Shown here piece by piece: positions 14,398 through 43,570 of a stretch of DNA of 64,000 nt (the first letter of the stretch is position 1; each line of letters begins with the position of its first letter). The notes beneath the pieces were generated by a model, which worked only from the letters and a program-made list of their open reading frames with translations, was not told the origin of the DNA and searched no databases. A program made the position numbers and the translations under genes. The stretch lies in NCBI GenBank assembly GCA_029891345.1, contig CM056997.1:213505212-213569211 (forward strand), written 5' to 3'. The DNA comes from Dryococelus australis (taxonomy: Eukaryota > Arthropoda > Insecta > Phasmatodea > Phasmatidae).

Positions 14398-14762
14398 TTG
14401 CCAAACACTGCTCAACAGACCTCAGTGTGCCATCACTCACCACATGAAGTAGCTGGTCTAGCCACTGACACATCACAACTGCAGAAAATGTGTTAGTCCA
14501 CCTTTTTGTGTCTGTGAATACTGCCCAGTGAGTACTTGTTTATTATGTCTCATTTTCAAAATTTCCTTTTCCCACCATATAAAAATGTTCAAATCACTAC
14601 TAATGCCATAATAAAATATTTTAATGGGTATTTAAACAAGTATTCTAAATTTTTCTTGTTAATTTCATTGATATGATTACTGAAGATTCATATAATAGTA
14701 ATGCTAGCTATGATACATGTGCATTGAAGTGTGTGTGGGGGTTATACAGGATAGAATACCAG

Positions 14763-14957
14763 AGTCCAATCTCACGGGAGCTGACAAGGCTAATGAAGAT
14801 ACCTGTGGACAACTACAACAACCTCCTCACAGTACTGGAGCTGCATCACTATGGCCCGCTGCTAGACTACTTCGACTACCATGGTCGCAAGAGCCTGACT
14901 GCCTACCTGGTGGCTAACGCGCTCGACAACGAGACCCACTTGCCCACCCCTGACCAG
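14763..14957 (+). CDS. Vps35: Internal exon of Vps35, retromer core subunit
   Basis: The exon encodes 65 residues including 'SRELTRLMKIPVDNYNN' and 'YFDYHGRKSL'. From memory, human VPS35 reads SKELTRLLKIPVDTYNN and EYFDYESRKS in the middle of the protein, so the match is unambiguous. VPS35 is the alpha-solenoid scaffold of the retromer complex, which with VPS26 and VPS29 returns cargo from endosomes to the Golgi or plasma membrane. The donor is clear: 'gaccag|gtaaca' after 14957, in phase 0. For the acceptor I prefer AG at 14761-14762, which gives a symmetric phase 0-0 exon of exactly 65 codons; an alternative is AG at 14748-14749. Human VPS35 has a V after the same DQ, consistent with this junction. 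No other Vps35 exon was recognised, so both flanking introns are very long or the exon is a stray copy. Confidence 0.9.
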
Positions 14958-17039: not shown

Positions 17040-17255
17040 TTTTCTAGACACAATTGTATGCAGGGCGTGGAGTATGATATTTTGTGGTAATTCTGTAACC
17101 ATATTGGCCTAGTGTTTCCTCTCTAGCTATCTATCTATCTCTCTCTATCGGCTGTGCGTGCTTGCTGGTAATCACATGAATTTTAAGATTATCCATCGTT
17201 CAAACTAGTTGCGCCTATCATCATCATTATTACTACAAAGCAAAGGGTTGACACA
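17040..17255 (+). repeat. Dispersed repeat R, left part, cut by the LTR element
   Basis: The stretch 'cctagtgtttcctctctagc' to 'gttgcgcctatcat' and 'caaagcaaaggg' aligns with 62086-62340 of the copy at the right end of the window. The copy there continues without interruption into sequence that here is found only after 40502. The retroelement therefore sits inside this repeat. Confidence 0.7.
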
Positions 17256-17258
17256 TGA

Positions 17259-19161
17259 TGCATAGCTGGCGATATAAATTGTCTGAATCTACAACTTCAA
17301 CTTAGCCCGTGGTAAGCCACTGTCCCTACACCGGAGATTGCACCTGTACTGCTACGTCCCAAAGATGATTACTACACACAGTTGCCAGTAATATTAAATA
17401 CGCACGTCAATCATGTGCCCCTGCCTAGCCACCCTAATGAAGCCAGCCTGCTCCTAAGTGCTCATCGGATACCACCCGCATTCACAGAGCTACCCTGATT
17501 CCAACCCTAGCCAAGAGAACGCAGCAAGGGATAATGCTGCCCACACAGAGAGGAGTTGGCTGGCTGAATACAGTCGAACTTCCCCAAGGAAACCGAAGGA
17601 AGGCTGCATTCAGTATTTAGTGCCGGACAACCCCTCAGAATGTCATTTAATGTCGAGTTATCACTTTGGCTTTCTCTGCTTTGGCAACGTAGCAACTCGC
17701 CCTACCACTGCCATGCTAGGGCTCTTTGCCTCAACCAGATTTTCCATCAGCGAAGCATGCTACAACCCCCGAGACACCCTTTCCACTTGTAATTGCTTAC
17801 CCTGTCCCTTCAGGACTATCCTAGACAACAGTAGGGTTTGAGTAGTTTTCACAACTGCTTTATTAGTTGCTCTATACTTGGTCTGTGCTTAACAGGTCCC
17901 CTTCACCTGTTATTAAAGTATCTTTCACCAGTTTCTTGGTAACCACGAAAGCCTACGCGTTAGTACAGGTCACCATATTTATTCTCCCGAGAATAAATAC
18001 GTTCAAGTGTACACATTGCATTCTGATTCCAAGGGTTATTTATACCTCTCACCCCTCCTGTAAACGCAGTCCACCAAGGGAGCAGCAGGTGACAGTCTCT
18101 TGACAAACAGTTTCCACCAATAGAGTAGGACTGTGGGCTCCGTTAACTGGGTAGTACATATGTTGTAAAACACCACACAATTCGCCGGCAACCTATACTG
18201 TAGACCCATTACACAAAGGCACTTGGCGCACACGTACAGTAGAGCCCCGCGCTGGGTACACTCCATGAGGAAGCAACTGGACCACCCGAGTCAGCTAACC
18301 CACTATATCCGCCACATGAAATTCGCCAGTTGGAGTGCAAGGCATGACAAGGTGTGACCCAGTAGCTTATGAGTGGTTCACGATGAGGGTTTAGCGCAAT
18401 CTGGAGTCAGCTTACCTGCTCTATCCACTGCGAGAGATCTGCCGGTTGGAGCGCTATAACTAATGCGGCGTGACGTTATTGCACCTGGGTACTCTAGCTA
18501 GGGATTTTCTGTGATCTTCCGCTTGCTTGCTGCGACTACCCTTAGTACCTAACATCATGCCATTCACCTGATGAAGAGGTACTAAGTGGGTCAATAAGAC
18601 GGCATCTATGGTTCCTACCGCTAACTAATTGCTAAGTAACCAATCCCAGTCAGTTGGTCTTCAGTCTTTCCTCCACTGAGCATTGTGCATAAACCGCCCG
18701 CCAACTGCAGGGGCCTCACTCCTCAGTCCCCTCTACTTATTTATTTGAGCCACCCCAAAAGACCGGCGGGACACTGCATCCAGTCATCGTCTATCTCCAG
18801 CTCAGAATACCAGTGAGCCTGGGCCTCGCCAGCACCATCCACTGAGCGATGCTGCCTGTCGCCACCACCTGGAGTCCAGTAACTCCAGGACCAGTCAGCT
18901 CCAGCTGCCCCCAGACGGGGTCTGAAGAGTCGCCTACTACAGCCAGCCAATGATCAGCTGCAGCGTTGGTCTACAGATGGTAAACCAGCATCCACTGCCA
19001 ACCACACCAACCAGGCCTTCTCTGTACTCTGGCTCCTTAAGAGCCAGGGCAAATCCACAGTAATTAGCCCTTAAGGCCACCCAGGTTTCTCTGCCTAAAC
19101 CCACTCAAATACTCCCCTGTAGGCTAGGTGACATACCAAGCATCCGGGCCATCAAACGTCA
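17259..19161 (+). repeat. 5' LTR of element A
   Basis: It begins at 'tgcatagctggcg' and ends at 'atcaaacgtca'. It aligns throughout with 38594-40502 (for example the 'cgccctaccactg' block at about 17698 and 39041). The end is set by length agreement with the 3' LTR; an alternative end directly before the primer site (19183) cannot be excluded. I could not confirm a short target duplication. Confidence 0.85.
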
Positions 19162-19183
19162 AAGAGAGGGGGAGGGTTTTTCA

Positions 19184-19201
19184 TGGCGCCCAACGTGAGG
19201 C
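19184..19201 (+). promoter_or_regulatory. Primer-binding site of element A, tRNA-Lys type
   Basis: 'tggcgcccaacgtgaggc' differs at one position from the 18-base site complementary to the 3' end of tRNA-Lys1,2, as known in several retroviruses. It lies just downstream of the 5' LTR, where minus-strand synthesis would have been primed. Confidence 0.85.
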
Positions 19202-19329
19202 ATTACGTCTTGTTGTTCAGATAACAAGGAACGAGCTAGACAAGCGTGACTTTGGGACGGAGCAGAGGTAACCAGCTAGCCACCCTAGAGACTTAGTCAT
19301 AAAACACCCAGTGGCACTCAATAATAAAC

Positions 19330-20900
19330 CTAGATAATGGCTAAAACCAACCTGAACCTAGCTGAGCAAGGCGAAAATTACACCACAGCAGGTCAGGAGT
19401 AACCGAGAGATGCCGCGTTGCCACCTGCCATGAAGAGAGGCAACACGTGGTATATTGTGCTCATTCTGAGAATTAGTTTCACTATACCTGCATAGGTTGG
19501 TCAGACTAAGCCAGATATACAGACAGCCTAGAATTTAGATTTGCAGAGTGGCGATTGCGAAAAAATGCCTATTGTGCCAGGATAACCTGTACTAGTTGAA
19601 GGGTGAACACCATCAAATGCATGACTTGTGCCCAGACATTTAACTAACCTCTGCATCAGATGGCCTGATGAGCACATCACACCCACAGGAGCACATCACA
19701 ACCCCAGACCACACCACAGTACAGCCTGGAGTGGGAGTTCTGATGGGCCCCAGCCTGCCGGAGTTCGCAGGTAGACCGCAAGAAGACACCGTAGCATTCA
19801 TGCAAGAGTGTGAGAGCAAGTTGTAAGGACATTGGAGTCCATCTACCCCCCCCCCTCCCCTTCCTCCTCATCAGTGAGAAATTAGTTAAAATTCCCGCTG
19901 CCCCGGTCAGTAGAAAAGCTGGTGGAACAAGCGAGAGAAAGTGAAAGGAATTAAAAGGCGCAAGGTGTCGTAGACCACAGTAACGTAGGCAAGGGTAATG
20001 AGGAAGTGAAACTGACATCATGTTCACCCTCCCCTACTCTTCCTTCACTCCCACCAGCTTCCCTTACCACCCCAGCCCTCCCACGGGGCCAGCACTTTAA
20101 CAGAGACTGCCCAAACAAGCCTGATGCCTACTAGGAACAAAAATAATGAAGCGTGCCCAACCAATGAGCTCCCAAACAGAACGAGAATATATTGCAGTTG
20201 GAAAATGCCAAAACCGGGGAGCAAAGTGGGCCACCACCATTGGAAACCATGGACCCGTCGACATCCAACCATTGATTCTAGAACAAAACCTGCCTCTGAA
20301 GCCCCAAGAATTGAAATAGAGGTGAACAAATGGCCCACGACTGCCCTGCTTGATTCAGCGGCTATGGGAAATTTTATACGGAAAGAACTTTTACTCAAAA
20401 CATAATTGTAGGAGCTTTACCCCCAGACCTGCCAAATTCACATGGCTAGTGCCATGCACATGTTGCCAGTTGCTACTCATTGAAATTAAACCGGTATGAA
20501 TTTCCTACGGAATTTATAGTGGTACCAGATATCATGGAGAAAGTGATTCTGCGACAGCCATGGCTACAACAATAGCATCATTGTATCATGGACTGGGACC
20601 AGAGACTAATGTATATTGGGAGCAAAGAGAGAGTAGCTGTAAACTGAGAATTTAGTCATGAAGCCATCATGCCTCTTCCCATCACCCAGCATAAATTAAC
20701 CATCAATTGGAAACACCCGAATTTCCACAACTGCAGGAAATTCTAAGTAAACTTGCTACCACTTTGGGCCATGGGAGAATGCTATGTCAAACATGCAATA
20801 TTCAACACGAGTTATGGTTGACAGATGACAAGCCTGTGTACTCTACCGTGTATCCGCGGGAAGGAGACTAATCCTGGAGAAAGTGAAGGCCCTTAAAGCC
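19330..20900 (+). pseudogene. Element A: gag, protease and start of polymerase, fossil
   Basis: Scattered frames carry a partial zinc-knuckle end ('GQHFNRDCPNKPDAY' region, about 20085-20130), then a retropepsin-like core ('TTALLDSAAMGNFIRK', about 20340) and the following protease C-terminal block ('VVPDIMEKVILRQPWLQQ', about 20520-20575). A linker and the first residues of the reverse transcriptase region run up to the insertion at 20901. The order is that of Gypsy (Metaviridae). The stretch is broken in several places. Confidence 0.75.
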
Positions 20901-21527
20901 GTCCCTACACTATATCCAATTTCTGCTACCTTCTGTTATACCCATGGGCGCAACAGAAGGCATAAAAATTTCTATAGCAGAAGAGAAGAAAGAATGCATC
21001 AGTTCATACCCATACGTTACCTAAAGTGCTAACAGAAAATTGTAAATGGCAGCCAAATACAACTTGCAAATGGCAGACAGTCCGCAGTTGCCAGGGCTAT
21101 AAATACAATCAAATATTACATGTAGGAGCTTTGTGGTACATCCAAAAAGTACGAAGACTATTTTTTTTCCTGAAGACTGTATTTATTTCATTTTCTGAGT
21201 ACAAGTACTAGGCTAATAATGTATGGAAAATAATGTTAGTATGGCACTGCTTATGTATAAAAAACAAGGTAGTCTACTGTTTTCACATTTGTGTACAACG
21301 GACGTTTACGCATCTAATTAAAACATTATTAAATGATTTAAATTTTTATCTTAAAAAGTATATTAATCAATATTGTGCTTTCTGTAACTAAACAAGTTTA
21401 TACGTTAGGGGACTAAACGAAGGGGAAAATATCACAATACTAATAGGTAATAAAGCTTTTGTGTGTGGAGGTTATCACTCCTGCAACATCCATAAAATAC
21501 GCATTTACACAGTACATTTTCAAGTTG

Positions 21528-21600
21528 TGTGTGTAGCATAGTGGGTTAGTGCACTGGCTTTTACCTTATACCTTTTGGTTTAAGAGTTCAAATCTCAAGT
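21528..21600 (+). other. tRNA-like pol III promoter segment, left arm
   Basis: It has an A-box-like 'tagcatagtgg' (21534-21544) and a B-box-like 'gagttcaaatc' (21584-21594), 50 bp apart. The spacing and words are those of a tRNA-derived sequence, but the cloverleaf is degenerate. Its partner lies in inverted orientation on the other arm of the foldback element. Confidence 0.6.
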
Positions 21601-21877
21601 CATGTAACAAAATTTTTAGTTACTTTATGTAATACATTGTCATTTGTAATTTATGTTATTGTCAGAAAATGTTTATTTCTAGTATTTCTTTAGATAAAAA
21701 CAATAATACACAAGTAACTGCACAGTGCAATTAGCTGCCTGTGGTTCTTTTTGATTTAGCTGTGGTTTGTATTATTGCTTTTAGACAAGATATTCCAGAA
21801 ATAAGCTTTTTCTGGCAATAACTTAAATTATAAACAGCAATATTGTATCACTAAAATTACTAAAAGTTTCGCGACAC

Positions 21878-21950
21878 TGAGATTTGAACTCTAAAACCTA
21901 AAATTTTACAGTGCGAACCCATGCCTCAACCCACTGAGTTACAGACACAT
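21878..21950 (-). other. tRNA-like pol III promoter segment, right arm
   Basis: On the minus strand it reads 'taactcagtgggttgagg' (A-box region, about 21924-21944) and 'agagttcaaatc' (B box, 21881-21892). It is the inverted counterpart of the copy at 21528-21600, so the two internal promoters converge on the centre of the foldback element. Confidence 0.6.
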
Positions 21951-22321
21951 CTTCCTAGTTAGCTGTGAAGAGGTTATAAAGATAAAAGTTCATAGTTATC
22001 ACATATTTTCAAAGTTGTGTTTGTTTCATTATGACTGTGGGAGTTAATTGAAACGTTTCCCGTTACTTATGCACACATTAAGTTTCATTTTGTACATAAA
22101 CACGTTTTACAGAACCCGTACTTTTTCGTAAATGGATATATATGTCTCGAGGTTGCTACTCTGGTGTCTGCCATCTTGTCTGTCGCAGCTCCGTGGGTAT
22201 AGCAGAAATTTAGAACATGTTCTATTACCATTTTGGGCATGCCCATGGGTACGAAACCGGTTATACCCGGAGCCAGACCCCCCGGAGGGGGCTGGATTGT
22301 AACTTACATGGGAGCAGAAAC

Positions 22322-25115
22322 TAGGGGTGGGAAATTCAATTTCTCGATTACCTCAATTTTTACTGTAATTGACTTAATTGAGAATCGAGGGGAAGTATGA
22401 ATTTATGAATTATTATTTCAATTATTATATAAAATATAAGTTTATATTTTAATAACTAGGCCTGTGCGAATATTCAAATTTTCGAATACCATTTCAAATT
22501 ATGAAATATTCATATTCAATTCAATGTAGAATATAAATACTTAGAATTTTCGAATATTAAATTTTTTTCATAGTGTGAATGTTGATATTTAGAAACAGTA
22601 CTTTCAGACTATGGTTGTACGTATTTTTGTAGTGCTGATACTGTACCTGTCAACTTTGACAAGGATCCCTTATCTGATGTCGCCCAGCCAGCCATAAAGT
22701 GGAATTGCTTTGCTGGGAATCAAAATGGCTCAAGTCATGAATAGGTATATAACACCCACAAATCTTTACAATGTAATAAAAATGCTGCTACCATACAACC
22801 AGGTTACACACACCTATTTCATTGTGAATAGCTTTTCTTTAAAAGTAAATCAAATATATCATATTATTCATATAATAGCATCTCTTCTTGAAGGGTTTGT
22901 CATAAATAATGCAAAAATACTTCAACCTAAATAATTTTTTCACCACTTCACAGTTGTAGTTGTGAATTTAGGTTTAAATATTTTTCCCTCAAAAATATTT
23001 TTTAAGAAAGGGTTATCTTCCTTTTGGGTAAATACGGTATTCATATTCCCAGTAATTAAATCATTTGCAGTAAATTTTTGTGAAGTATTTAATAACGTTT
23101 CGCAGTACAAAGCACTTCTTCCATGAAAAGGACTTCACAAATACAATTCGCACTTGGACGCTTTTCAGTGTACGTACTTGGAAGTATTAAAACATTTTAT
23201 AATTCCAATTTAATTTATTTCAAAAGACCGTATTTGTGATGTAAAAAGAAAATTACCCATTACTGTCATTGTAAAGTAATTAATAAGTAGTGACTTAATG
23301 GTTTTAAAAGAATTCTTCGCTAGAAAATGCAAAAATCATTCAAATATTTAAGGAATAGCAAGAAATGTTGAGTATAGTGAAACCTCTTTAATACAAAACT
23401 GAAGGGACCTAAAATTTTGCCCTCTGTATTAACGAGGTTTGCATTAACAGGTGTAGGTAAGCGTACTCCCAAAAAAAATCAACAAAAGCTACCATTGAAT
23501 TTTGCAGAGAACTAATTCAGGACAATAAATAAATCATAAGTCATTTATTTTAGTTTCCACACAAAATGATTAAAGCAGTTTGATGTATTTTCTGATCACA
23601 TGTAATATAGTTCAGATCATTAAAAATATAAAAAAATAAAATAAAAAATTTGTAACTTATATGTCAGAAAGTGGTAAATAAAACACCTCAAAATTTGTAA
23701 ATAAATTACACAATGGCTGTGTTAAATATCATCATAAAATTTACAAGGCGCTGCCAAAAAGTGGTGTAAAAATTTTCAAAAAGTGGTGGAAAAATTTTCA
23801 AAAGCTGGAAAACATTTTAATTTCTAAATTACTCTCACAAGTACCTTCATGTATACATTTTCACATAAGTGTTATCAACTCATATTCACATCTATGACAG
23901 AAAAATCTTTGAGTAATATGATGAAAGCATTATTTCAATGTTTCCTACTTTTAAATTTGTGCGTAAATGTGTCAAAATATGACCAAAAGAAGAAAAAGCG
24001 TGTTCACTGTCCACAAGTAGCCTATTTGCACTAAAATTAAATTATTGGAGGCGGTAAAAATTTTGAAAAACGAGCACTGAAATTATTTCAAAGTGCAACT
24101 CAAAACACAGAATAACATTAGGCCGTACCTGTGGGTCATTTTTGTTGACCAGTAAAAGAATTGGCTTGCATTTTCATTTACGTTTCAGTTTATGCTGGGT
24201 TAGGCCTAACTACTATTTTGAGGCTATGCACATCAACACTTGCTTGTGAATTGGTTTGTAAAAATTCAATAATTACGGAACATACTAATAATGAAATTGC
24301 AGAAATTATTAACCTAGCTTTTCGGATGTAGAACAGTTTTCACATTCCTGCAAGAACAAATGCAAATGTTTACACGTGCACCGAAAAGTTATACCGTATT
24401 TTTTGTATAAATTACTAAAGACCACGGTACACAAATACGTGTTTGCAGGTTAAACTACAGCAGAAAGTTCACTTCCTATTCATTTTATTTGGGCAGAACA
24501 CTGTGCTTAGCCGTATATGTGTAAACAAAGGAGTCACGCACAGTATCCATACGTGTTTGCAGAAACTCGAACTCAATTTGAAGTTCGATACATATCGAAA
24601 CACTCAATTCTCGCTGCGTTGTTCGACATTACGGCTTCTGTTAACATTTAGAACTCTTTTGCCGCTAGAAAAAATCATGTTTTGATCAATTTGATAGGGT
24701 TTTTGCGGGTGTTGTGTAATTGTAATTCAATTTAGCCTATAAAATAACAATGGTACATTCTGTGAATGGACAAGAGGTTACTTTGTACTACATAGTAACA
24801 AAAATTTCGTATTAACAGTATGTTTTAACATTGAATTTGCTATCTCAACCTTTGTGGGGAATTAAAATGGTTTTTATCAAAGCAAATTTTGCATTAAGCG
24901 ATATTTCAGTAACGAGGTTTCACTGCATTACATTAGAACTGCAGACGTCCTGCTCTTTTTCGTTATCGTTTCTTTTTATTGTTGTGCACTTTAGAATTGT
25001 ACAATTTTTCTTGGAAATAGGATAATCGAGAATCAAATAATCTAGAATTCGACCTTCTTTCAAGTAATAATTGGGAATAAGTAATCGAGAAAAAACATTA
25101 ATCGTCCCATCTCTA
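22322..25115. mobile_element. hAT-type element with 8-bp target duplication
   Basis: Termini are 'taggggtggga' at 22322 and 'tcccatctcta' ending at 25115, inverted with two differences. Both sides carry the 8-bp direct repeat 'gcagaaac' (22314-22321 and 25116-25123). An 8-bp duplication and TAGGG-type ends mark the hAT superfamily. I see no transposase frame; the element is non-autonomous or degraded. About 1.24 kb remain after taking out the pogo-like element at 23375-24925. The subterminal part 22345-22510 recurs, inverted, at 14030-14160. Confidence 0.9.
23375..24925. mobile_element. Pogo/Tigger-like element nested in the hAT
   Basis: The left end 'tagtgaaacctctttaatac' follows TA (23373-23374). 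The right end, read inverted from 24925, is 'cagtgaaacctcgttactg', flanked by CA, probably a mutated TA. CAGTGAAACCTCGTTAATA-type ends with TA duplication are characteristic of the pogo/Tigger group of Tc1/mariner elements. At 1551 bp no transposase frame is visible, so it is a decayed or internally rearranged copy. Confidence 0.75.
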
Positions 25116-25175
25116 GCAGAAACGCTAGCAGTAAATGGGTATGAAAACTTCTATGGAAATGGGTATCATGTAGGG

Positions 25176-25286
25176 CCGGCCTAAGGAACAAGGTACGGTC
25201 GAACCCAGTGAATCGCCATAGAACTCCCACATAATTCTCGTACCCACGAAGGATAGACAATTATGCTTCTATGTTAACTATAGGTA
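25176..25286 (+). pseudogene. Element A: reverse transcriptase fragment between two insertions
   Basis: The frame 'IILVPTKDRQLCFYVNYR' (about 25233-25286) has the spacing of the V-V-x-V-x-K-K-D-G-x-x-R-x-C-V-D-Y-R block in the fingers of Gypsy reverse transcriptases. It is an isolated piece bounded by the foldback element on the left and the TIR element on the right. Confidence 0.7.
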
Positions 25287-28200
25287 GTTCACGGTAAAGT
25301 GAGCACTTTTGAAAGTGCTGCTAAAACTCTACTTTGTTGCCCATTATGTATCCTTCCACCACATGTAAACAAACATTGCTATGTGACTGCCATGTGATTG
25401 CCACATGTTAATAAACTCGATGTTTACATTTTAGGACTGCTAAATGTAACACATATATTATATATAAAACATGTAACATATGTGATGTATATAACACATT
25501 ATATATATAATGTATGCATATATATGTATATATATCATGTAAAATATAAAATATATATAAAATACGTAACATATATCATTGTTTGGGTCATCTCACAGCT
25601 CCGATAGACAAAAACTTTACACAACAAACAATTGAAAAATGAACGCCCCAGCGATGAAGTCCTGGAAACTGTGAAAAGGCAAACATTAAACTTTGGTGGT
25701 GAACAAGGATCAACACGACATGTTAAAAAAGGACACACATTAGTTAAGTCGAAAAATAATTTGGAAGGGCAGCCAAATCCAGATTTTGAAATATACAAGA
25801 AATACTGCACAACCAAGGTACAACACCACTTGTCACACAAATTACCAAACATTTAAAAACAAGACCGCAAACTTAACGTTTCCCATGACTCATCATTTTC
25901 TAAGTGCCCCATCGCTCTGTAGTGTGACAAGTAAAACATCAGCTCTAAAACATGGTAGCTGTGTTTGGCCTCAGCTGACTGAAGTTAGGTGCAACTAAGC
26001 CATCAGGAAAAAACATACATCCTGCAGTCATAAGGTAGCAGCGTAACGTAGCAGATGTCTGAAGCGTATAAAGTAGACAGAGTGAGGCCGTGCAAGGACA
26101 AAAATAAAAAATGATAAATTTAAAAAATAATGATGAGGGAAATGGAAAGGGGAAGGCAGGGAGGCAAGGAAAGATGAGGGGATCTGAGCCAAGCAAAGAG
26201 TACACCACTGCACAGAAGTAGATGGTGCAAATAAACTTAACGTGATGGCGTAAACGTGGCAGTATATAAAAATATGTAATATATAAAAAAGAAAAATATA
26301 TGAAATGTGTGCATGTATATTTACATTTTAAGGATAGTTTTAAATGCACCTTTATAAATGGAGATAAATATATTTCAACATAGGCCTATAATGTATATAT
26401 AAAATTAAAATAATTTACACTAAAAATATTAACATATCAACAAATGCAATTGTGTATATGTACATATAGTTTTTTTTTTGACACTGTTACTCTATCTTCG
26501 TACCTTTAAAAAAGAACTGAACATTTATACTGTGAATTGAAGTGGTAAAAGAAGGGTATACCAGGCTTGTAACTGGCACCACCTTCATTTGTACAAAATA
26601 ATTCTAAAAATAATGTATATTTTTTATAGCTAAGTGAAATGCCGATCCGGTGATGGCCATATTTCGTGTTTCTCTTGTGGCCCAAATGGGTGCGGCATTT
26701 CCTTTTTGTCGTACCCACACAGACCTCAAGAAACTAATTTTACAGGTAAAGTGCATGGACTCTCATCATTCTTGTGGTTTCTTCATTGCAATGACTGCAG
26801 CAAAACTGAAAATTTAAATGAGAAAAGTATTTAAAGAAAATTACTATACGTACAAAAATGGTTCATGCGTACACACACAAAGCTGAAATGTCTAATTAAT
26901 AATTAATAACATATCCACAAATGACAGCAAAATGATAATGTAAAGGACAAATTATAAAAGTAATACTTACAGGCAAGTTACTGTGCATAGTGATAAGCAC
27001 TTAGTTTGACTCTCCTTGTTACTATAGTTGTGCGTCAATAAACAGCCAATCAGAAGCCCCGACACTTATACTATGTTATCAATAGAAAAACTTATTTACA
27101 AATCAAGAAAGTGTGTATTTTGACTTCATTCCTTGGGAAGATATTTTCTTTTGTTTATTTATGGATAATCACAACCACGGAAGTTTTGTAATGTTTTAGG
27201 TAATGTGTAAAGTAAAAATTGAAATGTAAATAATTTACCGTATTAAAAATGTCTCAGCTCTATTGAAATTATTTATTTTTTAAAAAAACCACTACGAACT
27301 CTATGTACAGACCTTAATTTCTTCTGTACAAATGTAGCAACATAAACACACTAATATTATTATCGTTATATCAATTGTAGCCAGGCCACTGTGCTTTTGT
27401 GTTTTGTATGTGCTTATCGCTATAACTGTGAATGTGTTTCGTATGTTAATTGTAGCCCGGCCCTTATTGAAAGCTAGCTCATACAGCTTCTTTAGAAATA
27501 CTTAATTTAACACGTACACTGTGGAATGTAATCTAACCTTTACAAAACATGCATTTGCAAGTAAACAGGAGCTCTGGGAGCCTGGGGTGTTGACTATGCG
27601 GTGTTATTTACAGTTACATTAAATTTCAATAACTACAATATTTTTGTGGCCAAAGTGGCAGATATTACAAACAATTATGCCTACTCAATAACACATACTA
27701 TCTTCGTTGATAATTCTCAAAAGGTAGCAAGTTGTCTTGTTGAACATCCATTTCGAAATTTAAACATGGAATTGTTCTATAGGCCTTGACAATAATTGTA
27801 AATACTTTCTTACTATGGCAAGCATTACGAAATAAAACAATTAGGCCTACACTTGCATCACGAAAGAATGTCGGCAACAAGCACAGCTATAGGTCTATAG
27901 TTAACAAAACCAGCTTCACGATTTTATAGTTTATATGTTGGAACACCTTTAGTGTTGCATCAAACTGCGATGTTTATGTTATGTTAACAATAGTAAAACT
28001 TAACACTGTAACTTGGGATGTATAACTACATGAACATAAGTTTGAGGTTAGACCTACATTTCAAAATAACACAGTGAGTTCATAATGTGTCAAATTAATG
28101 TATAATTATTGACAGGCACATTTGCACGTGTTATTAAGGCAGATTTTAGAAAGGTTGCATCGCTGGGCATAAATAGATATGTACAGATGTATTTGAGGTT

Positions 28201-29227
28201 AGGCCTACATTACAAAACTACACATAGATATAAAAACATGTAAAATTAACGTATAATTATTGATTGCCAAATTTCCACTTGTTATAATGACAGATTTGAA
28301 AGAAAGGTTAAACAGATGGGAGTAGGTAGATAGGTACAGATAACTTTTAATATTAAATGTCAAACTTAGGATATAACATGTATTTCGCAAATTCACATGA
28401 ATACATTAATGTTGCGTTTCTGCTGTCGTTCGTTTACTTTATAATTTTTATTTAGCTTTCCGTTTATAATGTCACATTACTAACTGTAGATTTATACTTG
28501 TTATTTTTCATTTTTGTTACTGGGAATAAGCGGCGAAAGCACATCATAAAACACATTTAGATTTACCTCCGGACAGTTGCAGTTGAAATTTTCATAATTT
28601 CTGCAACTTGTTCGGTGACCTTTCATGGCTTCATCTCTCCTCGACAAATTAAAGAATAAATACTTTCGGTGAGATTTATAATGTCCTCCTGATGCTGAAT
28701 ATTTGTACGTACTTTGCTGGAACTCACAATTTTACACAAAATCACTGCAGCACAATTAAACACTATAAGACTTAGAATAAAACAATGCTTATTGCAGATA
28801 AGCTGAAAAATAAATGAAAAATATTAAAACACAACTACTTCCAGTTTCCAAATTTGTAGTTTGCCTCACAAGCTAAGCCAAGCAACAATCATGAAGGAAC
28901 CACAACAACGGACCGTTGGTTTTGACCTTTGCACCGATCACGCGACACAATATAAATATGAGTTACAGTAAATACATTATCTTTATTCCAATAATTACTT
29001 TAAAGTGTATAAAATAAACTTCAAACAGCTTAAGTAGCCATAAATTTAAACATTACACTTGCAATACCACATTATTTCGTAGAAGTACTTTTCACATTTC
29101 ACTGCCAACATAGCTGGGTGTGTTCATCCCCAGCCTGTGTGGTGACATACATGATTATGCATACGCAGTTGCGGGCAGTGGTTTTTTTTCAAAGGTTGAT
29201 TTCTAGAGTGCTCACTTTAACGTGAAC
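25287..29227. mobile_element. 3.9-kb TIR element of unknown superfamily
   Basis: The ends are 'gttcacggtaaagtgagcac' (from 25287) and its inverted partner 'gtgctcactttaacgtgaac' (ending 29227), one difference in 20. They lie exactly at the edges of two reverse transcriptase fragments, which supports an insertion. No long coding frame is evident; short frames at 25632-25853 (plus) and about 26510-26720 are unassigned. An AT-dinucleotide-rich tract lies at 25440-25580. I could not identify a target duplication or match the TIR to a superfamily. Confidence 0.75.
28041..28345. repeat. Two-copy tandem repeat, about 151-bp unit
   Basis: 'tttgaggttag.cctacatt' starts at 28041 and again at 28192. 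The two units stay alignable through 'aattattga' and 'gtacagat' to about 28345, at roughly 75-80% identity. It lies inside the 3.9-kb TIR element. Confidence 0.7.
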
Positions 29228-29384
29228 GGTCTTTATCAAGAGTTGAACGATGTTACACATCTCATAGCTCCACCCGCCATTTACCTGTCACACATGCTGA
29301 TGTAGGGACACCCAGGTGTTCAGCAGTTCAGACCTGCAGACCGTATACTGGTAGACTGCCTTGCACCCAGATAGTCGTAAATAT
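29228..29384 (+). pseudogene. Element A: reverse transcriptase fragment, second piece
   Basis: The frames contain 'LNDVTHLIAPPAIYLSHML' (about 29250-29305) and 'VFSSSDLQTVYW' (about 29323-29355), which have the spacing of the Y-P-L-P-x-I-x-x-x-L and V-F-S-x-L-D-L-x-S-G-Y-x-Q blocks of Gypsy reverse transcriptases. The piece is bounded by the TIR element on the left and a hAT on the right. It is broken. Confidence 0.7.
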
Positions 29385-30493
29385 TTTCGCTGGGCCAATG
29401 CCGATACCACAGTAGCTACAGATATTTATAGTATCGGAATCGGAAGTATCTGACAAAATAAATTCAGATACTCTGCACCGATACCGCAGTTTACCTGTGC
29501 TTGTCAGTAACACCAGATGGTCAGAAATAGGGTGGCAACTTAGGAGTATTGCAGGCTCAACTGCTGTTGTTTTGAGGTAATAGTTGTGCTGTTATTATTC
29601 AAAGAACTAAACTGACAGGCTGTCACTTAACAACCAAAAAAGATATGTGGGAAAAGATGCCCTGCTCTGAGATAATCATCAACTGTAGGAGGAAAGTGTA
29701 TGGAAGAGAGAGAGAGAAATGCTGTTCTCAACCCACTGTGGCTGCCTACAATGTAAGAGATAATCATCTACAGCGTGTTATGGGGGGTCAGGTCACCTAA
29801 TTACCAGCTTTGCAAGGGTCGCACAGCAGCTCCATCTTGTCATGTCAGTATTTAAAATATTTTAAAAGCAATATTAAATATGACACTAATTACCTGGCAA
29901 TTGACAGTGCATCAATTTTACTCTCATTAAAATAATGGGGTGCTGAATTTAAAAACTATACATACATATTAATAATTTTTAATTTTCTGAATATAAACAA
30001 AATTGGATTATACTGAGAAATGTGGTACCCTTGTAGATTTAATATTTTCTATATGATAAGTTTAAAACATAAATAGTTTAAGTTGCCCTGACCTAAGATT
30101 AAATATATATTACTAAAGTATTCTTTGAGTGTCACTTTTATTCTCCAATTTTGAAGAATTCTTGTGAAATTAATTTACCTATTGTTCTGTATGTTTACTT
30201 AAAGCATAAAATAGTACATAATGTACACTGATTTTAACACAGATTTCCATCAGCTTTCCAAAATACTTTTAATGCTAGTAGAAGTCTTCCAGTTCATTGT
30301 CTTAAATGTTCTTGGCTGAATACAATATATTTTAATAATAAATCATGAAAGTATGCAATTATTCTTTTATCACACAGTCTCTTCTAATGTGGGTATTTTA
30401 TCGGCAGTATTGGCTCACAAGAATTGGTATCTGTAGAATCTGCAAAAAGGGGTTTCTGTAGAATCGGCAAAAAGTGGTATCAGCCCAGCCCTA
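29385..30493. mobile_element. hAT-type element, 1.1 kb, 8-bp target duplication
   Basis: The 8-bp direct repeat 'gtaaatat' lies at 29377-29384 and 30494-30501. The right end, read inverted, is 'tagggctgggctgatacca'; the left end 'tttcgctgggccaatgccg' is a worn version of the same. 'gataccg'/'cggtatc' words crowd both ends, as in the element at 32340. No transposase frame was seen. It interrupts the reverse transcriptase region of element A. Confidence 0.88.
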
Positions 30494-32339
30494 GTAAATA
30501 TACTGAGTTTACAACACCCGAAGGAAAAACCCTGCAGTTCAAGGTCATGCCTTTCTGTCTCAAAAATGTGCCAGCCACATTCCAGCGATTGGTCGGCCGA
30601 AGTATTGACCAGTTACATAGGCGTATTTTGCTCGCCTGTCTAGACATCATCATTGTGTATTCACTCTCCTGGGAGGAACGCTGTGTACATTTACAGAGAG
30701 TCCTAGAGCACCTGGAAGTAGGTGGATTTAAACTGCAAGTTTTTCAAAAGCCATTTTGGTAAGAGGAGTATCGACTACGCGGGGCATATGGTCTTCCAGG
30801 AAAGGAACATTCCCAAACAAGCTCTATCCAAACAATATAAGAGGTGCTTCCTCGGCCTTTGCAACTAGCTGAGAGAGTTCGTACCTGACATCACCCAGCT
30901 GATGGCACCTGTTAACTCCGGGGAAAGATACATGCCGGCATTGGGGCCCTGAACACCAAGCCACCTTCCATAGCCTGAAAGACAGCTTCCGGAAAATCCA
31001 GCTTCTCCACAGGCCACAAGAAGGAATGCCACTTAACTTGTAAACCAATGCCTGTCAAGACAGCTTGGGCACGGTTTTATACCAGGAAGGCTCTGAACGA
31101 CACCACCAGGTGATATACGCAAGCACGATTGAACAGCACCAGTAAACATACCACATTAATGAATTGGAGTTTCTCGCAGAGATTTGAACAGTCAGCAAGT
31201 ATCGCTACCACCTGAAAGGATAGCGGTTAATCCTCAGAACCGACAGCAATGCCTTCCAGTGGCTACATGATTCCCGGAACACTAAAGCCAAGCTAGGAAG
31301 ATGGGTGATGTTCCTGACGGAATCCAATTTTGAAGTACAGTATAGGCCAGGAAAGTTAAATAACCCGCCCGACTCCCTGTCTGGGCAACCAGAAGTCCAG
31401 GGTGGAACGAAGGAAGATGAAGAGTGGGAGCACATGACCCCTCTGCCGACTCCACCCCAAAGTCCCGTCGAAGAAATCTGTCTCCTCTAACTCCAAGTCA
31501 GCAGGTACCAGCTCAACTACTTCCTGCAAAAGGATCCAGAGGCCCAAGACTTGCTAAGGAACCATCCCCCAACATTGTGAACTACGGAACGGGGTGATCT
31601 GGTCAAAGACAATAATCCCAGAGCACCATGGGAGATGGAGCTATGTGCCAACATCTGCCACACCATTGCAACCACCGCCAGGCAGCACATCCCAGCATGA
31701 AGGAGACTCTCTGAGACATAAGAGAGTAGTACATCTGGAACAGAATGAGTCGTGATATCAGACAGTATGTAGCTGGGTGTGAAACTTGCTGCAGGTGCAA
31801 GGCTTACCCGGCACGCAAGCTCGCCAGGAAGCCACAACCACCCCAAAGCCCTTGGACCCACTTGGCTGCTGACGTAATGGGACCTTATGCCAGGAGCATA
31901 GCAAAACCGCTACCTCGTTATTACAGGACCTGTTTACTCGTTGGTGGAGGCTTTCCTGTTATCCAACCAAGAAGCACTATTAATAATAAGGAAGTTTCAA
32001 AAATAGATTATTTCCCGCTGGGGATATTCTCAAGCTATCCTCGCCAACAATGGGACCCAGTTTACAGGTAGCAAGTGGCAGACAGCTTGTAATAAATGGG
32101 GATGAAAACCTGGACAACCGTGCCGTACAACCTGCAAGCCAACCCCACTGAGCAGAGAAACCAGGAACTAAAGAAGAGCCTCCGACTTAGTGTGGGAGTA
32201 GACCACCACGACATGAACCTACCTGATATTCTGTTCGCCTTTAGACGCCAGAATAACGAAGCCATAAACATGAGTCCCAGCCAGCTAGTCCTGGGGCACA
32301 TCCTCCTTCGCCCCGGGAGTGGCAGTGGGATGAGAAACC
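30494..32339 (+). pseudogene. Element A: polymerase palm, RNase H and integrase, fossil
   Basis: In order: 'KYTEFTTPEGKTLQF' and 'PATFQRLVGRSID' then 'LACLDIIIVYS' (the YLDD-box region) of reverse transcriptase (30495-30780); 'YHINELEFLAE', 'RTDSNAFQWL' and 'FEVQYRPGKLNNPPDSLS' of RNase H and its tether (about 31150-31380); 'MSRDIRQYVAGCETCCRCK' of the integrase HHCC finger (31745); 'HLAADVMGPYA' of the integrase core (about 31860). This is the Gypsy order. The region is broken in several places and is cut at 32340 by a hAT element. Confidence 0.85.
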
Positions 32340-32797
32340 TAGGGATGGGCCGATACTGATTAACCAGCCGATACCACATTCATCAGCATCTGTGCGATCT
32401 AAACATTATTTGCTGATTATTATTCACCTATTAGTAACACCACTTTTTTTAACACAGTGTTAAATAACCCGGCATGCTACATCTTGTAAAGCATTAATTT
32501 ACCGCATCCATCAATCAGGTATTCGGTCCGAAACCCAAAATATATTCGGAACAATTGTTTTTTGATGATTTGTTCCCGTTGTTTACATTTTACTGTATTT
32601 TCTGTTGTACATTCACCAAAGATTGTTTACATCATTCGTTTATGGACACTATGTGAATGCAAAACAACACAGTTAATCGACAACTGGTGCTATTGATAGT
32701 ATTGTTTACATCGTGCAAGAAGTTTTGTTTTATTTTCTTCTTACATTTTTACTATTTTTACAGCATTCGTATATTGGCAACAATGAGAAAGCAACCT

Positions 32798-32840
<43 letters not shown>

Positions 32841-33402
32841 CATAGGTTAGCTGGAATGAAAACACTGTTTTATTATTGAAAGTGATGAGTGAAAGCAAAC
32901 ACAAAAGATTTTGATGGGCGTTGTTATTATTGGAAAATGTCAGTTGTGGTTTTGGTTAGTGTGTTAAAGGTCTGAATAAGACTGGGACTTGCCAAAACAT
33001 TGTCGCAAATTTATGAGTTGTCATTTTAATTAAGAGATTGAGTATGGCTCAGCAGACAAAGGATTACTAAGCAAAAATATTAATATACATAAAAAAAAAT
33101 TTGCCTAATTTCAAGTGAATATTTAATATTAAATTGATTTAAAAAAATTATTTTCAATGACATCTTTAGGCTGTTGGTTTAAACAAAGTGCATGTTGAGG
33201 TTATGTATGGTATTTTTCAGATCTAATATCCAAGTCCGCATCAGATTGCCTGAAGTTTTGAAGGTTGACTTCCAAATATTGGGAATTGGCAATTATGATT
33301 GTGCTCATAAAAACTGGTATCGGCATCGGTGTAATCGACGGCATTGGCAGTTAAGAATCCGTATTGTTGGTATCTGCAAAATGTGGTATCGGCCCATTCC
33401 TA
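32340..33402. mobile_element. hAT-type element, 1.06 kb, 8-bp target duplication
   Basis: Termini are 'tagggatgggccgatact' (32340) and, inverted from 33402, 'taggaatgggccgatacca'. The 8-bp direct repeat 'gagaaacc' lies at 32332-32339 and 33403-33410. It contains a run of about 43 T (32798-32840) and multiple 'ggtatcgg' words near the ends. There is no transposase, so it is non-autonomous. It interrupts the integrase region of element A. Confidence 0.93.
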
Positions 33403-34870: not shown

Positions 34871-35029
34871 ACGGATTTACCGGGCACAGAAGAACCACCC
34901 CTCCTCCCTGCTTCTAGATGGTCAACAATAACCCGTGTGAATTGCTTTCGAGAACACTTCAAACAGGAAGACTGCCACTAAACTGCGAAGCAGCACTCAG
35001 TGATGTTGAAATTGTACATAATACTGTCA

Positions 35030-38000
35030 TGTAGTCCTTGACATGTTTAGTTATTTCCTAAATACATCCTGTATCAATAGCATTTTATACTTGTGTTCAT
35101 AAAAGTTACTTTTTTTTTTTCTGCTAAATCAAAATGTTATTCATATTTTATCTAGAAATTATAATGCTCCATTTGTAAATTATCTGAATAAAAATCAGGG
35201 AGAAAATAGGAATGTTGGTAGCACCTAGTGAGAAATAGTCCTTATACAAAATACTGTTACACTTAGTGCGCACAAATGTTTGTGTGTTGACCACTGGTGA
35301 AATTCTCCAGATTTGTTAAGCTTAATTTGCACGCGGCAGAGGAATATCCTGGAAGTAGAACTTTTGCAGGGCTTCAGAAAAGGCTGAAGTAACCGTGAAT
35401 GGACTATAGTTGTATAGTTTTGAGTGCCAAATGTTTTTTTTTCTCTTGTAGGTGACTCCTATGCCATTACATAGTTAGGTATGTAAATAATTTTTTTTTA
35501 AGTGAAAGGGTTCCCCACATTAGCATAGGATGTACTTGGATACCGGCGTGACAGAAGACTTAGACTTAGCTTCGGCCTAGTTCATTGTCATATGCAAATT
35601 ACCTGCAATGCGACCATATGAGTGGCCACAGACCACAGAGCAAGGCCCATTGCTAACACACCTTCTGCACCATGGCAGATACAGCTAGAAGCTTACGTAC
35701 CCATTGTGAATTTTGGTTTTTAAAAAAAACTTTTTTTTTTTTTTCTCAGTGCTAAATACATCTGGATGCATGTATTTGCATTTCCAGATCAAACTGTATT
35801 AACTGATCTATTGTACCTACAGCTCTCGGCTGTTCTGTGTGAGTGCCACATCCTTTGCTTAAACAAGAAGGGTGCGTGCATTCACCTGACATTGGTACCA
35901 GTCCTGTAACATAATCTCCCCAGGAAGTTAAGCCATTATTGGGCCCTGTGCCGTTGGTAGCACCTTGTAGAAAGAAAACCACGCAATCTCCTACCAGTTG
36001 TGCCGCATGTATGATAAAAAGGGAAATAAATTAAGTAGTATGTCCACTTCAAAAGAAAAAACTCAGCCCTCAAAAATAGAATCACCACATAACATTGCAT
36101 AAACGTGGTTATAGTAACATGATAGGACTGAGAAAGAAAACATATATAAGGATAAGTGTCATAAGAAATACATTAATCATGCTGGGAATCGTACATGGCA
36201 CAAAAGGATGAAAATACTGTATAAAATGGGCAAGACTTCCTTGTCAAATAGAAATAAATATTAGGTCAAGAGGTAAATCAACTAGATTATGAATTTAAAA
36301 AACACGTTAATTGTGGTGATGTGCTAAAATCGCTTTTTGAATATTTATTGAATTCATTCTTGGTAAATTATTTTTTATTACAACATAGTAGGACATGAGT
36401 ATATGAATCGGAATAAATAGTTAATATCACTGTTGACATATCAGCACAGAAAACAATATTTAAAAAAATTTATATGAATGGTCTTATAATTTGGGGTAAC
36501 CATAATTTTAAATAAACATGACTGGGAATCTCAGAAAAGTCTCAATATAAAATATCTTTAGGTTTACCACAAGAATAAAAAATTTTAACATTATTTTGTT
36601 AGCAAAGAGGATCTTGAATGTCTGTACACAGACAAGAAAGTTCATGTATACAGCTGTTATATATTGATATATATTAGAGTGCCATATGGAGGAGTTTGTA
36701 TAAAAGACATTTTTCACATTAATCAATAGGCCATTAAAATCATAAAATATTCAGTGGATAATACTAGGCTTTCGGATGCATCGAGCCAATCGAAAGATAG
36801 TTACATATGACCAACAAAAAAATTACATTATGATATAATACTTATAATAAGCATATAATTGTCTCGTACAACTTTACCATCATTTAAGGAAGTTCATTAT
36901 TTTTTTGTATGATACTAAAAGTTTATTAAAATATTTTTTCCTAGACTTAGCTGGCAATGGAGAGTTGAGGAAATTAGAACTCGCAGAAATAGGCGAGAAG
37001 CAGATGCTCTGCATGATGTGAGAAGTAGCAATCTGCATTACTTGAAAAGTTATACTGGAGTACAGAATGTAGAATCTTTGCCGTAGAAAGACAGTGCAGA
37101 ACTGAAATAAAGCATGTAAATAACCATGCTCTGGCATGGGGTAGAATGAAATGGAACCTTGGAATGATGGGACCCTCTCTAAAAAAAAAACATGAAGGAA
37201 CTAAAATAATTAATAAAGTGAATCTGGCTGGGGACATATAGATACAACGTAATTAAATTAGACCAGTACTCACAGAGGGTAACCAAAATATCCTTACATG
37301 GTGACAGTAGTAGTCAGAAATACAAGAATAAAATTTTTTTAAATCACCACACCACAAAAGTTACATTTCGGCTCCACTACGTGATGTCAGGCATGTATAG
37401 AACACATGGTTAAAGGATTTCAAGTCCCAGAAAATACGTTCACGGCCACCGCATGGTGCAACCACGCCATGACTGTAGCGAGCCTGAAAGTCAAATGTGT
37501 AGAGGGAAGGACGGTGGAGCTGGAAGACACGAGAAAAGCGTAGTACCGCAATCGCAGCTAGATAGCATAGGTTGTACAAAAGGAGGTAGAGCGCTGCGTC
37601 GATGTTCGATAGCACGTGAAAATACTGCATTTTTTATAGGAAATCACTATCTAACTGCATGATCACATAAAGAAAATGCAGAATGAGCTATGGCAGAAAA
37701 AAAGCATGTTGAAGAGGGCTACGGCCGACGCGACAAAGGAATGTGCTACGTTTCACAGCACTTCTGGTGAAAAAGGAAAACGAGGACTGAAATACGGTTC
37801 TGGTTGCCGCTAAAGAGTTTGGAAGTACGACTTAAACAGTATTCTAAAGAAACTTAGGCTATAAATATTAAAATATTAATACTCATATGAAGTAGGTCGA
37901 GATAAGAAAATTAATCTATTTATATAGCCAGATAAAGCAATATAAGTTACTTGACGAAAATGAAAATGGAATTAAATAAGCATATAGGAAATAAACTTTA

Positions 38001-38370
38001 CTGGCTAATCAGACAACTCATATATACTTCAAAATGAGAAAAATAGTATTATTTACCATCATAATAAAAGTGACAAGACATACAATAAGAAAAACTCAGA
38101 ATATAGGCAATTAACTTGAATACAGACAATAATTAAAATTCAGTTGATTAGCAGAGGAAGAGACAATGATAATACTCAGTAATTTATAGTTGATAAAAAC
38201 ATTTAAAATTATGTTTTCAAAAAAGTTCAAAAATGAGACATCAAAAATTGATAGAGACGCATAAATTGCAAAAAAATACCAAAGATGCATAATCAAGAAA
38301 CAAAAATCGTAGGGACATAGTTTAAAACTTTAATGTCATAATTTAAAATGCATGTAAAAAGTAGTGTCGT
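35030..38370. other. Unassigned AT-rich block inside element A
   Basis: Composition switches from GC-rich retroelement DNA to AT-rich DNA near 35030 and back near 38370. There is no coding frame, terminal inverted repeat or target duplication that I could identify. Its size would explain why element A is longer (about 12.8 kb) than usual after removing the recognised inserts, so it may be another insertion. Confidence 0.4.
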
Positions 38371-38572
38371 ATTTGAGATGGCACAGCCCTCGCCTCACCC
38401 GACCACCACCTGGAAGAGAAAAACAGCGCTATGAGGAGAACTGGCCACCATTCACAAGTCCAAGTGAGCGCACACAAGATCGGGAGCTACAAAAGGCAAC
38501 GTCGGAGACTTCCTGTGACATTTCTACATCACTACAACCCCAGGACTCCACGAGCCGAGTTTATGTTGCAAT

Positions 38573-38589
38573 GGGGAGGGGGGGGGGAA
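38573..38589 (+). promoter_or_regulatory. Polypurine tract of element A
   Basis: An uninterrupted purine run of A and G ('ggggaggggggggggaa') lies directly before the 3' LTR, the site that would prime plus-strand synthesis. A similar G-run stands before the 3' LTR of element B. Confidence 0.85.
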
Positions 38590-38593
38590 TTTA

Positions 38594-40502
38594 TGCATGG
38601 CGCGTAACTGGCAATTTACCTTTTATGAATATACGACTTCAACTCAGTCCATGGGAAGTCACAGTACCCGCACCAGAGATTGAACCTGGACTGCTGTGTC
38701 CCGAAGATGATTACTACATTCTGTTGCCAGTAATACTAAATACACATGTCAATCATGTGCCACTTCCTAGCCACCCAAACGAAGCCGATCTGCGCCAAAG
38801 CGAACTTCAGATACCACCCATAACCACAGAGCTACCCCAATTCCAACTCTTGCCAAGATAGCGCAGCAAGTGATGTCACCATCCAGACAGGAAGGAGCTG
38901 GTGAATCGAAGATTTTTGAATAGCCTGAAGGAAACAGAAGAAAGGCTTCATTCAGTATTTAGGGCCAGATGAGCCCCCAGAATGTCATTTGACGTCGAGT
39001 TGTCGTTGGATTGGCTTCCTCTGTTTTGGCAACCCAGCAGCTCGCCCTACCACTGGCATACTAGGGCTCTCTGCCCCAACCAGATCTTCTGTCAATGAAG
39101 TTGCTTCAAACCCTGAGATACCCACTCCACTTGGGAGTGCTTACCTCCATCTCTTCAGGACTATACTAGACGACATTGGGGTTAGTCTTTTTTCACGTCT
39201 GCTTTATTTGTTGCTCTAGACTTGATCTTTGCTTAACAGGTCCCTTCACCTGTGGTAAACGTAACTTCGGCCGGTTGTTTCATGATCTAGAAAGCGCAAG
39301 AGTTAGTATCGGTCACCGTGTTTATTCTACCTAAAATAAATTGGTTCAAGTCTAAGCACTGTGTTCTGATTCCATAGGTGATTTGTACCTCTCAATCCCC
39401 CTATGGAGTGGTAGGTGACCGTGTCTTGCCAAACTGTTTCCAACAATAAGAGTAGGACTGCAGGCTCCCTTAACTGGGTAGTACATACATCGCAAAACAT
39501 CACACTATTCGCCAGCCACACATACTGTGGGCCGAGTACGCAATGACACTTCATGCACGTGTACGGTAGAGCCCCCTACTAGGTACACGCCACAAGGAAG
39601 TAACTGAACCACCAGAGTCAGCTAACCCATTCCATCCACCGTGTTGAATTCGCTGGTTGGTATGCCTGGCCTGACAAGGTGTGACTGGTAGCTTCTGAGT
39701 GGCTCACGACGAAGCTTTAGCCCCACCCCAAGTCAGCTAACTTGCTCCATACACCATGTGATATCTGCCAGTTGGAGCACTAGGACTGACACGGCATGAT
39801 GTTATTGCATGTGGGTACTCTAGCTAGGGAATTTGTCACCTACCCCTTGCGTGCGACAACCCTTAGTATGCAACACTATTCCATCCACACAATGAGGATT
39901 GACTAAGTGGGCCGATATGACATCTACGCATGGCTCCTACAGCCAACCAATTGCCAAGTAACCCATTCCAGTTATCCTTTGGCCTTTCCTACGCTGGTTA
40001 TCAGGCACAAGCTGCCCGCCGACTGAAGGGCGTCACTTTTCACTCCCCCCTAGTCATTTATTATAGCCACCCCAGAAGACTGGGGGGTAACTGCATCCTG
40101 TCGTTGTCCGTCTCCAGCTCAGATTCCCTGGGGCCTGGGCCTCACATGCACCATGCACCGAGCGACGCCTGCCACCGCCACCTGGAGCCCAGCAACCCAG
40201 GACCAGCCAGCTCCACCCGCATGCCAGCCGACCCAGAGGTTTGCCCACTGCTGCCAGCCAACAGTCAGTTACAGCGCCAGTTTGCAGGTGGTAAGCCAGC
40301 ACCCACTGCCAGCCATGCCACCTTAGATGCCTATGTAGCTTGCCGCCACCCGACCTGACTGATTCTGTACACCAGTTCCCTAAGCCAGGGAGAATCCACA
40401 GTAATCAGCCTGTAAGGCTACCCATGGTCCTCGCCCTGAACCCACTCAAAAACTCCCCTGTAGACTAGGTGACTTGCCTATCATCCTGGCCGTCACATGT
40501 CA
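38594..40502 (+). repeat. 3' LTR of element A
   Basis: It starts 'tgcatggcgcg' after the polypurine tract and ends 'gtcacatgtca'. Length is 1909 bp, against 1903 bp for the 5' LTR. It aligns with 17259-19161 along its length. Confidence 0.87.
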
Positions 40503-41400
40503 TGGGTTTGCCTGTGAATGTTACACAATGCATTTTAATGAGGAATGATTATTTGCAAATGTGTTTTCTTTTGTGATTAAAGGTATTTTTTCCCTTTAAG
40601 TTTGTGTTTAATTGTATATGGCATAAAATCAACATAAAAACAAAATGTTAATATAACTCATCAGGCAGCATCTTTGTGAATAAATTATATGCTTAGAAGC
40701 ATATACTTTACCACCCCTTGGTGCCAAAAATTGTTTGAATATCCAGCGACTTGTATTACCTAGGGTAAAGTTTGTTTGCAGTGACTTCCTGTGGGGAAAT
40801 CAGAGACTTTATATTTATTTATTTCAATAAACATGCATCTTTTGAATTAACTGATATCCTGTAAGGGTTTATTTAACACCATTTGTCATCTAATAATAGG
40901 TATGCACCGAGCCCGAGTGCAGGCGTAACTCATGACGAGGAAAATCAGAGGACGTGGTTTTGAATGATTAATTATTAAAGACCAAGGAGAAATCAACTTT
41001 TATCACTGTATTTATTCATTTCTGTCCTAAAATTACAAGAGTTTTGCAGTGGAATAATTACTTTAAAAGACAGAAATTTGCCACGCACATGTGCAAGGTG
41101 TCACCAACAGGTATTGGTGTTGAGGTATTCATTGTTTTACCCCTTCATACGCTTCCCCTACTCCATCTCACCTGCCATGAACACACTGCACAATCAATAA
41201 CCTCTCCGCGTGCTCTCAACTGATCGAGTTTGCATGGGACATTCAAAATATGACTTGCATTCAGTGTCGTATTATTTTCATTTTCAAAGGGTTAGAAAAG
41301 TTTTTGGTCGCTTGCATTTGATGTCTGATTACAATCAATTAATTATGTATGGCATTTTGAGATGTTATATTCTTGATTAAACAGGTTGAGGTGAAATGTT
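40503..41400 (+). repeat. Dispersed repeat R, right part
   Basis: It continues repeat R after the LTR element. 'gattatttgcaaatgtgttt' (40548), 'agaagcatat' (40696) and 'aaatcagaggacgtgg' (40942) align with 62385, 62535 and 62698 in the copy at the right end of the window. The last part (41150-41340) also aligns with 52890-53220. Confidence 0.85.

Positions 41401-43515: not shown

Positions 43516-43522
<7 letters not shown>

Positions 43523-43564
<42 letters not shown>
43523..43564. repeat. (CA)n microsatellite
   Basis: About 20 uninterrupted CA dinucleotides framed by 'tatata'. It interrupts an otherwise alignable stretch of element D; element C lacks it at the equivalent position (about 57480). 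Confidence 0.97.

Positions 43565-43570
<6 letters not shown>

Follow-up and report, generated by a model that had tools for sequence, protein, structure and literature searches.

Paralogous empty sites support a five-level transposon nest in the stick insect Dryococelus australis

When transposable elements interrupt one another, can the order of their arrival be read at a single locus, and do other copies in the same genome agree with that order? This question is raised by a stretch of 64,000 nt of Dryococelus australis (C5:213505212-213569211, hereafter the window, meaning the whole stretch analysed), in which a dispersed repeat, R, is split by a long terminal repeat (LTR) element, A, itself split by a foldback element, F, which is split by a hAT-like element, H, and this one in turn by a pogo/Tc1-like element, P. 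An initial annotation had proposed such a five-level nest, with the insertion order R, A, F, H, P, and this order was indeed borne out by paralogous empty sites at every junction. The nest almost certainly records a sequence of independent insertions, of R, then A, F, H and P.

Continuity across every insertion point was checked in copies from the same genome. The genome searched comprised 3,415,067,245 bases in 646 contigs, and the published assembly of the species is described as 3.42 Gb long, with 63.29% of it made up of repeats, mostly unclassified, and 17 of its scaffolds large (PMC10268593). A first look gave 2735 candidates for the right piece of R, 1540 for F, 1849 for H and 209 for P, and the copies of A, R, F, H and P compared below were drawn from 39 other scored relatives per queried piece. 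The chance of obtaining inverted ends was evaluated by scoring anchored terminal inverted repeats against about 4,834-4,850 random pairs per element, and an exact 8-bp flank match was found to arise in 16 of 400,000 random draws.

At the outermost level, R is present on the plus strand as a left piece (17154-17249) and a right piece (40504 to about 41400), on either side of A (plus strand, 17249-40502). A copy of R without A, R2, lies uninterrupted on the plus strand of the same window (62253-62850). Window self-BLAST and alignment matched the left piece to 62253-62340 and the stretch 40517-41085 of the right piece to 62350-62850; the stretches matching both pieces directly adjoin in R2, so that R without A is present inside the window itself. 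Matches of this quality to 100-bp pieces of R were equalled in none of 2974 random windows for the left piece and none of 2984 for the other. The same pattern was observed genome-wide, in 29 R copies fetched with the right piece, all of which match it: 24 match both sides of the R/A site and 5 have no detectable left match. Continuity to within 25 bp was found in 22 of the 24 two-sided copies, the remaining two standing at -28 and -30, and in 10 of the 24 the two sides overlap by 4-5 bp, which corresponds to the target duplication of A. This duplication reads GGGT or GGGTT on either side, which fits the 4-6 bp expected of a Ty3/gypsy LTR retrotransposon.

Inside A, the foldback element F (plus strand, 20897-25181), with about 1.48 kb of sequence of its own, is flanked by TAA at 20894-20896 and 25182-25184. 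Among 29 A copies examined, all 18 that match both sides of the A/F site were continuous to within 12 bp, 11 of them at gap 0, and the score of the inverted ends of F was reached by none of 4848 random pairs. At the right ends of other F copies, TTA or TAA follows in 15 of 16, with T preceding in all 15; the sole copy read at both ends (L128/L111) has TTA on the left and TAA on the right, which fits a TTAA target too. The left end was missing from its predicted place in three of four attempts. F holds an imperfect palindromic core with inverted arms (21522-21953; inverted self-match of 444 columns, 68%, E 9e-33). Heads resembling transfer RNA had been picked out by eye in this palindrome, a candidate which was rejected, as no transfer RNA was found there and the only matches were to four microRNA families, far below gathering scores.

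The third insertion, H (plus strand, 22322-25115), is bordered by GCAGAAAC at 22314-22321 and 25116-25123, identical at 8 of 8 positions across both flanks. The F/H site was found without H in 16 of 16 F copies, at gap 0 and with a single 8-mer, GCAGAAAC or a variant of it. Thirty-four of the 39 other scored copies share the exact left end of H, at least 6 of the 8 bases are duplicated in 15 of the 18 copies having both ends, and the score of its inverted ends was reached by 1 of 4835 random pairs. Near 22605, most other H copies are longer than the one in the window, by roughly 120-170 bp. A possible sixth level, marked by a hAT-like terminus at 22457, was considered and dismissed: this sequence belongs to the H family, all 39 other scored copies continuing through it.

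The innermost element, P (plus strand, 23375-24925), has TA at its left flank and CA at its right. Twenty-seven other H copies were examined at the H/P site, 7 of which stop short; the 20 that reach both sides are all without P, including one (L027) in which the P site itself is duplicated. In many H copies the empty site is a single TA. Of 39 other scored copies of P, 34 start at position 1 or 2 of the element; TA stands before 14 of the 16 termini inspected, and the inverted ends scored above all of 4839 random pairs. P copies start with CAGTGAAACCTC, which we take to resemble the start of pogo; a literature search for this string returned unrelated papers only.

H lies exactly at the coordinates and with the 8-bp target duplication given in the initial annotation; the extent of P was confirmed, the TA flank ascribed to it being found on the left side only; and F does lie in A, its ends shifting from 20901 and 25175 to 20897 and 25181, 4 and 6 bases further out, as indicated by the TAA duplication and the A copies. 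In the copies examined, no case was seen of sequence continuing over a junction while also carrying the insert, and the boundaries given for H, P and F are also the ends of other members of their families.

Composites of cut-and-paste elements can move, and the nest could therefore have been partly assembled elsewhere, an inner element entering its host before the host moved, as would be the case if H had carried P into F. F, H and P indeed resemble cut-and-paste elements by their duplications and ends, and a single locus taken alone is compatible with prior assembly; against it, the next inner element was found at the same site in none of 20 H copies for P, none of 16 F copies for H and none of 18 A copies for F. 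Since no examined copy bears the next inner element, joint movement of composites is argued against and stepwise insertion here is favored; we regard assembly elsewhere as very improbable, and infer that every step of the insertion series happened at this locus.

The three further DNA elements predicted within A were also present. E2 (minus strand, about 25281-29233) shows a TA or TAT duplication and 28-bp inverted ends (89%), whose score, tested at 25287/29227, was reached by none of 4834 random pairs; all 21 two-sided copies among the 29 A copies were continuous across its site to within 19 bp, 18 of them at gap 0. It matched twice among 76 other loci compared, one match beginning at its inverted end, and ends akin to its own occur elsewhere in the genome; F, P, E3 and E4 had no match in these 76 loci. 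E2 is probably Tc1/mariner-like, and contains a weak HTH_17 match below cut-off (28563-28724, E 0.0023). E3 (29385-30493), a hAT-like element, is bordered by an exact GTAAATAT duplication, and 25 of the 26 two-sided copies, again among 29 A copies, were continuous to within 30 bp, 17 at gap 0. E4 (32340-33402), likewise hAT-like, has an exact GAGAAACC duplication; an unguided scan for 8-bp duplications accompanied by inverted ends ranked it first (15/16, where 5 shuffles gave 11 at most), the score of its inverted ends was reached by none of 4839 random pairs, and of 10 pieces fetched for its site, 2 had no left match and the other 8 were continuous to within 11 bp. A literature search for the E4 end string found nothing. 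Further along A, an AT-rich block (35040-38360; G+C mostly 0.21-0.47, versus about 0.5-0.6 before it and about 0.5 after) is perhaps one or more further inserts. Its stretch 35752-35947 is a dispersed repeat that recurs in L063, and a search for inverted ends and duplications over 35.0-38.4 kb found no ends.

Could the whole nest be an artefact, with repeats misjoined during assembly? According to its report, the assembly is 63% repeat, was built from error-prone long reads and lacks more than 1 Gb of the estimated genome (PMC10268593). However, misjoins produce neither exact duplications, such as those at the F, H, E3 and E4 junctions, nor empty sites at or near base resolution, and an artefact is thus the least credible account of the locus, with a probability close to nil.

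With successive insertion as the preferred reading, the nature of the host element A deserves attention. On its sequence features, A is a decayed Ty3/gypsy-like LTR retrotransposon. Its LTRs, both on the plus strand, extend approximately over 17249-19161 (5′) and from about 38590 to 40502 (3′), as determined by self-BLAST and gapped alignment. Window self-BLAST paired 17254-19161 with 38596-40502 at 74%, and the gapped alignment, short flanks included, gave a p-distance of 0.228 and a Kimura two-parameter distance (K2P) of 0.277. The closest PDB entry to a reverse transcriptase piece (plus strand, 30493-30759) is Ty3 reverse transcriptase (4ol8; E 7.3e-8), and RVT_1 was matched at 30388-30759 (E 1.3e-5, 25.4 bits versus a Pfam cut-off of 29.6). 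An integrase zinc-binding piece (plus strand, 31730-32068) matched Integrase_H2C2 (E 7.5e-5, 23.2 bits versus a cut-off of 25.5), with no relevant PDB match. For another reverse transcriptase piece, caught between inserts at 25183-25281, the sole PDB match up to E 10 was again Ty3 reverse transcriptase, at E 0.57. Relatives of the A reverse transcriptase were sought in viral contigs, where 17 pattern matches yielded no confirmed case, and in the protein database, where none was found. A thus shares with Ty3/gypsy LTR retrotransposons its two long LTRs, a Ty3-like reverse transcriptase piece, an integrase zinc-binding match and a short duplication, and differs from them in being decayed and interrupted by at least four inserts, with LTRs of about 1.9 kb.

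Several observations weigh against this reading of the locus. The comparisons used the highest-scoring copies instead of randomly chosen ones, and gaps were in part extrapolated from local matches. The 5′ end of A (about 17249) could lie as much as 7 bp away, an uncertainty that persisted when the LTR start was sought in 10 stretches, 5 of which matched, 2 of them (L071 and L073) near the start. Within A, the RVT_1, ribonuclease H (31224) and H2C2 (31730) pieces follow one another in Ty3 order, all below Pfam cut-offs; a presumed reverse transcriptase piece between E2 and E3 (29231-29368) found no reverse transcriptase in PDB, only a topoisomerase (E 0.39), and an integrase-region piece (32096-32339) had no relevant PDB match. 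The overlap at E2 is ambiguous between TA and TAT. The inverted ends of E3 are weak, their score being reached by 34 of 4850 random pairs, and in the exception at its site, L041, the flanks stand 1456 bp apart, yet this copy has no match to E3. The right duplication of P is CA instead of TA, and when its inverted ends were compared with 20 shuffles of H, an equally good pair was obtained in 6, which taken alone is chance level. Despite this weak inverted-end evidence, we hold the P and E3 insertions to be settled because of their empty sites.

From the lengths of the duplications and the form of the termini, a mechanism may be proposed for each step. A would have entered R by reverse transcription and integration, leaving a 4-5 bp duplication. 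F would then have entered A by PIF/Harbinger-like cut and paste, with duplication of TAA. A three-base TWA target (TTA/TAA), together with inverted ends, is a trait of PIF/Harbinger elements, and F resembles them in its inverted ends and may do so in its target; it departs from them in having short frames only (the longest stop-to-stop frames listed are of 77-81 amino acids) and a palindromic core that makes it a foldback, and the TTAA target fits it as well. H may have entered F in a hAT-like manner, with its 8-bp duplication. It is a hAT-like element, probably non-autonomous; the longest stop-to-stop frames listed for it outside P are of 76-81 amino acids. Like hAT elements, H, E3 and E4 have 8-bp duplications and inverted ends, which open with TAGGG or a close variant in both H and E4 and are weaker in the case of E3; unlike them, they showed only short reading frames, and their families are unnamed. 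P would finally have entered H in a pogo/Tc1-like manner, with duplication of TA. P, and perhaps E2, share the TA target with pogo/Tc1-mariner elements, to which P adds its CAGTGAAACCTC terminus; unlike these elements, P has only short frames (the longest stop-to-stop frame listed is of 88 amino acids) and E2 just the weak helix-turn-helix match. E2, E3 and E4 would have entered A at separate points. In the decayed A, and in F, H and P with their short frames, no feature seen points to any function other than insertion followed by drift.

Does divergence tell the same story as nesting? Half of the LTR K2P (0.138) exceeds the terminal branch of H (0.084), and A is therefore older than H; all terminal branches in the H comparison lie between 0.071 and 0.122, and the mean K2P of H to 19 copies is 0.128. 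Clock and stratigraphy thus agree for A and H. F, H and P, by contrast, are unrankable by divergence because their scored relatives are similarly diverged, with identities over the queried stretches of 86-90% for F, 82-86% for H and 83-91% for P. E2, E3 and E4 arrived later than A, and are unordered with respect to F, H and P. The initial suggestion that the locus gives the order of activity of five families was in this respect overstated: what is ordered here is five insertions, and the activity of each family may have extended over a long time.

Regarding the surroundings, an exon of VPS35, a retromer component, lies upstream of the nest (14748-14960; Vps35, E 4.5e-10). The nest is likely inside a VPS35 intron; a crude motif search did not find the next exon within the window. 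Also upstream, 11754-13119 and 14018-14397 form a decayed region without a Pfam match, which we take to be hAT-like, with a hAT-like end at 14397; a frame within it (12184-12624) is 59% identical to a hypothetical Dryococelus australis protein. An inverted match at 14018-14172 (158 bp, 94%), entertained as a sign of a composite, is read instead as a fragment of the H family. Elsewhere, a 104-bp unit is repeated 11 times in tandem at 2121-3262 (95% matches), a BED zinc finger match barely above the Pfam cut-off (7054-7566, E 2.4e-4) is perhaps another transposase piece, and 43287-46026 and 55005-57693 are diverged copies of one stretch in opposite orientation, with 70-73% identity.

Nests and the dating of elements by interruption are well known, and the present nest is ordinary in kind. 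REANNOTATE derives insertion order from nests and uses LTR divergence to bound the age of their contents, and according to its Table 3, 48% of the repeats on human chromosome 2 lie within another repeat (PMC2672092); TRANScendence (PMC5657132) is likewise reported to take order from interruptions, as is transposon interruption analysis (PMC2517846). As in REANNOTATE-type methods, an interrupting element is here a later insertion; these methods work genome-wide from repeat annotation, whereas a single locus was here checked against copies from its own genome. A limited literature search combining stick insects with hAT and nesting gave, among the titles listed, none on this locus.

The nest alone raises no new biological question. 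It offers a clean, checked example, in which other genomic copies place each of seven junctions at or close to single-base precision, and it supplies ends for several families in a repeat content described as largely unclassified (PMC10268593). We judge it as likely as not that F, H and P represent large non-autonomous families, unnamed and similarly diverged, of one phasmid, this locus being a single sample of its genome. If this is true, a large number of nests of this sort could resolve overlapping bursts in enough detail to test whether families were active in succession or concurrently.

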